Origin: Candidatus Polarisedimenticolia bacterium
Lineage (GTDB): Bacteria > Acidobacteriota > Polarisedimenticolia > Gp22-AA2 > AA152
NCBI GenBank assembly: GCA_036004685.1
Contig: DASYRE010000036.1
Span: forward strand, 1-64,000
Length of the DNA stretch: 64,000 nt
Direction: 5' to 3'
Position numbers and translations under genes: made by a program
Notes under the pieces: generated by a model
Told to the model about the DNA's origin: nothing
What the model saw: only the letters and a program-made list of their open reading frames with translations
The model's database searches: none
In this document: in pieces, positions 28,382 through 29,379 of the stretch
Position numbering within the stretch: the stretch's first letter is position 1
Layout: each line of letters opens with the position of its first letter

Positions 28382-28537
28382 CCACCTGCGGAAGTCGATC
28401 GCAGGGTCGAAAGCTCTTCGGCAGCGCGCCGGCAAACGGCCCGGCGATTTCGGGGTGCCGCGCGCCGGCGGCGGGGCTGGACGGCGCGGTCAGGAGCGGG
28501 GACCATCGAGCCCGGGATTCTCAGGGAGGACTCTAAG

Positions 28538-29104
28538 ATGACTTGGATCAAGACCGTGCCGCTCTCCGAGGCGTCGGAGACTCTGCGCCGCGCCCTGGAC
28601 GCGCAGCGCGAGCTTTACCCATTGGAGTACGCCGAGCCCGTCCAGCCGACGGACGACGGAGTCTCGGGAATCGTGGCGTCCCACAGCCTGATCCCCGAGG
28701 CGCTTTACCATGCCTTCGCGACCTTCGGGGTCCTGATGTCTCCGGACCTGCCGCTGAGCCGCCGGCGGCACGAGATGATCACGACGCGCGTGTCGATCCT
28801 GAACCGCTGCCACTATTGAATCACCTCCCACGCAGAGTTCCTGCGTCGCGTGACCTTGGATGACGCGCTCGTCCAGGCTCTTCAGTTCGACTACGAGCAC
28901 GCGCCCATCAGCGCAGCGGATCGAGCGATGCTGGACTACGTCGGCAAGCTGACCACGGATGCCACGACCATCGGCCCGGCGGACCACGAGCGGCTTCGCG
29001 ATCACGGATTCGACGATCGGGCGATCCTGCAGATCACCCTCATCGCCTCCTGGTTCAACTACATCAATCGGGTGGCCGACGCGTTGGGAGTCGGCCGGAG
29101 CTGA
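28538..29104 (+). CDS. AhpD-like peroxidase-related selenoprotein (CxxU), in-frame TGA at codon 94
   Basis: The reading frame from ATG 28538 is broken only by TGA 28817-28819 and then continues in the same phase to TGA 29102. The whole 188-aa product fits the carboxymuconolactone-decarboxylase/AhpD peroxidase-related family: an N-terminal helical half ending [18 protein letters not shown], then C91-H92-Y93-[TGA][10 protein letters not shown], then a C-terminal half ending [11 protein letters not shown]. In the family this site is the redox CxxC motif followed by xxSH, so the TGA stands exactly at the second Cys. Replacement of Cys by selenocysteine at this site is known for AhpD-like proteins. 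A 6-bp hairpin sits 10 bases after the TGA. A sequencing error or a decayed gene remains possible but explains the exact site less well. Confidence 0.85.
28830..28846 (+). promoter_or_regulatory. Candidate bacterial SECIS hairpin
   Basis: ACGCAG pairs perfectly with CTGCGT around the five-base loop AGTTC. The loop begins 16 bases after the TGA codon, within the 16-37 base range reported for bacterial SECIS elements, and it contains the expected G-U. Six base pairs is short but sufficient for such elements. The hairpin lies inside the coding frame, as bacterial SECIS elements do. Confidence 0.6.
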
Positions 29105-29379
29105 GCGGCCTTCCGAGAACCGATTTCGCGACGTCGTTTCCCCGCCTCGTCTCGGACTCAGAGCTTTCCCGACCTGGGTTTCGGTAGTGGCCCGACCGTC
29201 CGCCGCGTCTGGTATGCCGCGCTGGCGACCATGGGTTTGCGCCGGAGCGAGGTGGGCGGCTTCGGTTCCCCCGTGCCCTCGGAGAGTCATCGCGGGGGAT
29301 ACTTCGGGTGATCGCCTCACGCAATGCTTTTCCGAAGCACGGCCACCACATGGAGGCGCGATCCTGGCGACGAATCGGC

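Follow-up and report, generated by a model that had tools for sequence, protein, structure and literature searches.

A predicted AhpD-like selenoprotein gene with a conserved CxxU site and downstream hairpin in Candidatus Polarisedimenticolia

AhpD-like selenoproteins, which carry selenocysteine (Sec) in a CxxU motif, were described in 2005 as 27 sequences of COG2128 from the Sargasso Sea (PMC1088965), were found to be abundant in ocean sampling in 2008, and are named in a 2026 review as TIGR01926, CxxU (PMC13188914); an earlier note on the present DNA, which stated that Sec is known at this site of AhpD-like proteins, is in line with the published record. Selenoproteins of Acidobacteria were noted in 2006, comprising four proteins of three families. 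A G in a small apical loop has been used as a criterion for the bacterial SECIS element (PMC1088965). For the AhpD-like protein PA0269, a catalytic relay of Glu36, Cys48, Tyr50, Cys51, and His55 and a weak, thiol-dependent peroxidase activity have been reported (PMC3141380).

The stretch of DNA analysed here (the window, 64,000 nt from a Candidatus Polarisedimenticolia bacterium) contains an AhpD-like gene whose frame holds a single internal stop, the TGA at codon 94 within the stretch N-R-C-H-Y-(TGA)-I-T-S-H, and which runs on in phase to its own end, as the earlier note had read it (Table 1). A Shine-Dalgarno-like GGGAGG is located directly 5′ of the ATG. Using translation table 11, the gene is read as two ORFs of 93 and 84 residues. 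The read-through protein belongs to the peroxidase-related family TIGR01926 (107.9 bits, cut-off 81.8) and matches the Pfam CMD domain PF02627 (34.3 bits, cut-off 23), while its score against the true AhpD model TIGR00777 (17.7, cut-off 191.95) is so far below the threshold that the protein is not AhpD proper. The PDB search returned 2pfx as the best solved relative (E 2e-24), and in this alignment the window TGA stands opposite the second Cys of CFYC. By homology, an AhpD-type alkylhydroperoxidase function, with reduction of peroxides or activity coupled to AhpC, may be predicted for the window protein.

No conserved neighbourhood was found around the gene, and since shared flanking ORFs were limited to groups of 3–11 of the 41 loci, no operon partner that might point to a substrate is proposed. 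All plasmid relatives of the gene share less than 60% identity with it, so a plasmid origin is not indicated, and an Rfam scan of the whole window returned no match. An antisense open frame of 276 codons (28490–29320, minus strand) spans the entire AhpD-like gene; comparable antisense ORFs are also present at ortholog loci, and the frame looks like a by-product of the codon structure of high G+C DNA.

Table 1. Coordinates of the features assigned to the AhpD-like locus in the window
Feature	Position	Strand	Detail	Evidence
AhpD-like (TIGR01926, peroxidase-related) gene, predicted selenoprotein	28538..29104	+	188 residues, Sec 94	Read-through translation, TIGR01926, PF02627, 2pfx, relatives
Probable ribosome-binding stretch	28523..28537	+	GGGAGGACTCTAAG, adjoins ATG 28538	Read from sequence
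Predicted catalytic residues E79, C91, Y93, U94, H98	28772-28774, 28808-28810, 28814-28816, 28817-28819, 28829-28831 (span 28772..28831)	+		Sequence compared with PA0269
In-frame TGA, predicted Sec94	28817..28819	+	Second Cys position of CxxC (C91-H-Y-U94)	Translation, ortholog column
Predicted apical stem-loop of bacterial SECIS	28830..28846	+	ACGCAG-AGTTC-CTGCGT, G in loop	MFE fold, ortholog pairing, synonymous constraint
Terminal stop TGA of the AhpD-like gene	29102-29104	+		

The conservation of the internal TGA was assayed in two sets of homologs. A homolog at E 1e-10 was present in 29 of 60 relative genomes, and in the 30 loci that were fetched the same column throughout held either TGA (24 loci, the window's own included) or TGC (six loci). 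In the alignment, the column of the window TGA is that of the second Cys of the CxxC in the Cys homologs without exception, which confirms the placement of the TGA at the second redox Cys and answers the call of the earlier note for an alignment of this codon in homologues. Furthermore, the best 80 loci from genome_contigs all carry C-x-Y-TGA and are full length, with 68–81% identity over 187 residues, and the TGA at the codon 94 column is the only stop inside the match. Together with six further orthologs, some of which probably derive from the same genomes as members of the 80 (e.g. G054 and JAUIDB010000013.1, identical in sequence), this column contains 85 TGA and one TGC. The record titles of the 80 name at least six phyla (Acidobacteria, Gemmatimonadetes, Planctomycetes, Latescibacterota, Zixibacteria, and KSB1), of which some bins may be misassigned. 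Comparison of the window gene with six TGA orthologs gave pN/pS values of 0.22–0.47 on the 5′ side of the TGA and 0.26–0.42 on the 3′ side; these similar values indicate the same constraint on both halves, which is not expected of a true stop. Supportively, selA was above cut-off in all 24 genomes with a TGA homolog, the source genome included, and none of the seven selA-less genomes carries one; across the 60 genomes this association has a hypergeometric p of about 0.02, calculated by hand with relatedness ignored.

The earlier note had described a hairpin with a 6-bp stem and a 5-base loop starting 10 bases after the TGA, and exactly this structure, with the loop AGUUC, is present in the window. 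Folding of the 40 nt after the TGA, as that note had suggested, returned the hairpin as part of the MFE structure (−11.3 kcal/mol, z −2.15). The z-score dropped to −0.56 for a longer segment, an equal or lower MFE was obtained in 236 of 1000 synonymous recodings, and all six stem pairs arose in 259 of 20,000 synonymous recodings. Single-sequence folding as proof of a SECIS was therefore rejected. It is by conservation, with TGA in 85 of 86 orthologs and near-frozen synonymous sites, and not by its fold alone, that the hairpin is judged from the aligned sequences to be beyond chance.

The synonymous constraint is confined to the hairpin. At positions +4 to +9 after the TGA, the residues H, A, E, F, L, and R are encoded by CAC, GCA, GAG, TTT, CTG, and CGT in 84, 83, 85, 84, 85, and 81 of the 85 TGA orthologs, respectively, whereas the adjoining codons for Ser(+3) and Arg(+10) vary freely in the ortholog clade. 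The mean relative codon entropy was 0.07 for these six codons vs. 0.78 for 50 other conserved codons (Mann-Whitney p 4e-5). As GCA and CGT are rare in the neighbouring genes of the window (10 of 262 Ala codons and 12 of 216 Arg codons, respectively), the freezing of these codons is not a result of codon bias. The consensus hairpin of the orthologs, which RNAalifold also recovered from the clade, has a 7-bp stem and a GUU loop; all seven pairs are formed in 80 of the 85 TGA orthologs and six of seven in the remaining five, the window copy among them. The window copy carries TTC (28838–28840) in place of the common TTT, and the C at 28840 opens the loop-closing pair to give 6 bp and a 5-nt loop. 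The SECIS proposed in the earlier note thus stands as a conserved hairpin, and its dimensions are refined, as the 6-bp stem with 5-nt loop is only the variant of the window. This rare C, for which the other 84 TGA orthologs carry T, is a natural variant or a base error. As in described bacterial SECIS elements, the hairpin lies just 3′ of the UGA and exposes a G in its small apical loop.

These data bear on the explanation that the gene is a pseudogene, or that it is a Cys gene into which sequencing or assembly has wrongly introduced the TGA. The split of the frame into two ORFs under table 11 is what this explanation would predict, but the same codon is TGA in 85 orthologs, which stem from many separate assemblies, and it is very unlikely that a sequencing error would recur in this way; moreover, purifying selection continues 3′ of the TGA and the synonymous sites are frozen precisely within the hairpin. 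We therefore regard a decayed or misread Cys gene as exceedingly improbable.

Beyond the ortholog clade, the pairing was followed in 22 diverse homologs. The pair at columns 17/27 changes from C-G to G-C in seven of the 22, a compensatory exchange, and pairing in the fixed register reached 75.3% vs. at most 50.6% in any slid register. The shuffle counts for the wider family (3/500 and 5/500) are not probabilities, depend on rows set by the analyst, and carry supporting weight only. RNAalifold over these 22 homologs returned no single consensus hairpin, and one hairpin for all TGA homologs was rejected; the fixed columns fit the ortholog clade together with some members of the wider family, and other TGA homologs of that family appear to use another hairpin register. 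A distant TGA-bearing AhpD-like group (L041, L043, L044, L047, L048, and L051) was also observed, most of whose members share PLPRWFREL...CHYU. The register of the window hairpin yields no pairing in the stretch 3′ of their TGA, and their SECIS probably differs in shape. In the Cys homologs, only one to three of the seven hairpin pairs are formed.

The earlier note had reasoned that the genome must carry the Sec genes selA, selB, selC, and selD, whose absence would have spoken against Sec. All were found in the source genome (G000; 3.84 Mb in 62 contigs, 100% complete by estimate). The family search placed selA on contig C11 (563.9 bits), selB on contig C19 as a single 648-residue frame (327.1 bits summed over the matches in the frame), and selD on contig C8 (369.4 bits), all above cut-off, and a tRNA-Sec with the anticodon UCA by ARAGORN was found on contig C49 (75.1 bits, above the Rfam cut-off); the other Rfam tRNA-Sec match above cut-off (49.6 bits) is a tRNA-Ser. 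The SelD gene itself (C8:40973-41899, minus strand) also contains an in-frame TGA, at SSGGUAAKL, which raises the selenoprotein genes of this genome to at least two.

UCA-anticodon allo-tRNAs exist in some bacteria, and through a suppressor tRNA or a genome-wide stop reassignment the UGA could be read as Cys, Ser, or Trp rather than Sec. However, UGA still terminates in this setting, as the AhpD-like gene and most of the homologs examined end in TGA, the genome carries a tRNA-Sec above the Rfam cut-off together with selA, selB, and selD, and the need for a hairpin is specific to SelB decoding; insertion of one of these other residues is accordingly given hardly any credence.

The sole close Cys ortholog provides a further comparison. 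It is encoded with TGC at G053:C125:5464-6015 (L029) and shares 63% identity. In this genome, which is 99% complete, no selA match and no selB above cut-off were found, and the tRNA-Sec match of 47.1 bits (cut-off 47) is at the level of ordinary tRNAs. The hairpin of the Cys ortholog has decayed to three of seven pairs, and Thr replaces the first Cys (NRTRYC), giving TxxC instead of CxxC. Two further stop-free AhpD-like homologs lie just upstream in G053 (C125:2496-2951 and C125:4590-5039).

Residues Glu79, Cys91, Tyr93, Sec94, and His98 of the window protein reproduce the spacing of the PA0269 relay, and agree with the AhpD pattern of Glu, Cys, Tyr (or His), Cys or Sec, and His. Sec insertion is generally in competition with termination at UGA across the bacteria, which would favour the view that the UGA is a true stop, read through only occasionally, and that the 93-residue product is the functional one; however, the downstream half is under constraint equal to that of the upstream half and contains the proton-relay His98, and the 93-residue product lacks the second redox residue, so that such a stop is scarcely credible.

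Collectively, the genomic evidence strongly supports Sec decoding at codon 94, and as judged from the DNA this is almost certainly an ordinary bacterial selenoprotein gene, in which UGA 94 would be read as Sec via SelB and the hairpin to yield an AhpD-like product. Following the scheme of other bacteria (PMC9312934), the ribosome would reach the UGA at codon 94, SelB with Sec-tRNA-Sec(UCA) would bind the stem-loop 10 nt downstream, and Sec would be inserted in place of termination to give a 188-residue AhpD-like protein with the redox pair C91-H-Y-U94. On the model of AhpD and PA0269, the reactive residue would be Sec94, which would pair with Cys91 in a selenenylsulfide, and protons would be relayed through Glu79, Tyr93, and His98. 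The reaction may be a thiol-dependent reduction of peroxide or of another oxidised substrate, a peroxidase chemistry and substrate that we infer from these relatives.

A well-supported selenoprotein is hereby added to Acidobacteriota and related soil bacteria, one for which standard annotation would give two fragments or a broken gene. With its hairpin codons frozen and the Sec machinery correspondingly lost from the genome of the lone close Cys ortholog, the gene is a clean textbook example of how Sec decoding can be recognised from DNA alone. The window gene adds to the already known AhpD-like CxxU selenoproteins, and the underlying principle is known; a modest new point suggested by the sequence searches is a Sec-conserving subfamily that scores under the NCBIfam selenoprotein-specific AhpD models. 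The window protein lies outside both NF041238 AhpD_rel_CFYUT (57 bits, cut-off 175) and NF053654 GroundWater_YciW (34.8 bits, cut-off 310), and because of these low scores automatic annotation may miss the subfamily. More tentatively, and with the balance tilting slightly against it, the gene could represent a widespread subfamily that can hardly do without Sec (85/86 orthologs) and whose SECIS is, in several phyla, better conserved at the nucleotide level than the sequence around it. Where the Sec machinery is lost, the active site of this subfamily would be an unusual TxxC and not a plain CxxC. Selenium may then be necessary for the chemistry of these proteins, and current annotation may overlook them.

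Compared with known systems, the window protein resembles the AhpD-like CxxU family (COG2128/TIGR01926) in its domain family, its CxxU site, and a SECIS directly downstream. Unlike the published CxxU examples, which are largely marine metagenome reads, its clade is close-knit and consists mainly of Acidobacteria and Gemmatimonadetes records. The proteins of NF041238 and NF053654 are homologous Sec-carrying AhpD domains, like the window protein. The Cys-type structures 2pfx, 3c1l, 2oyo, 2prr, and 6k40 belong to the same fold family by sequence, and the AhpD-like PA0269 (2o4d) shares the E-C-Y-C-H relay; all of these carry Cys where the window protein has the predicted Sec.
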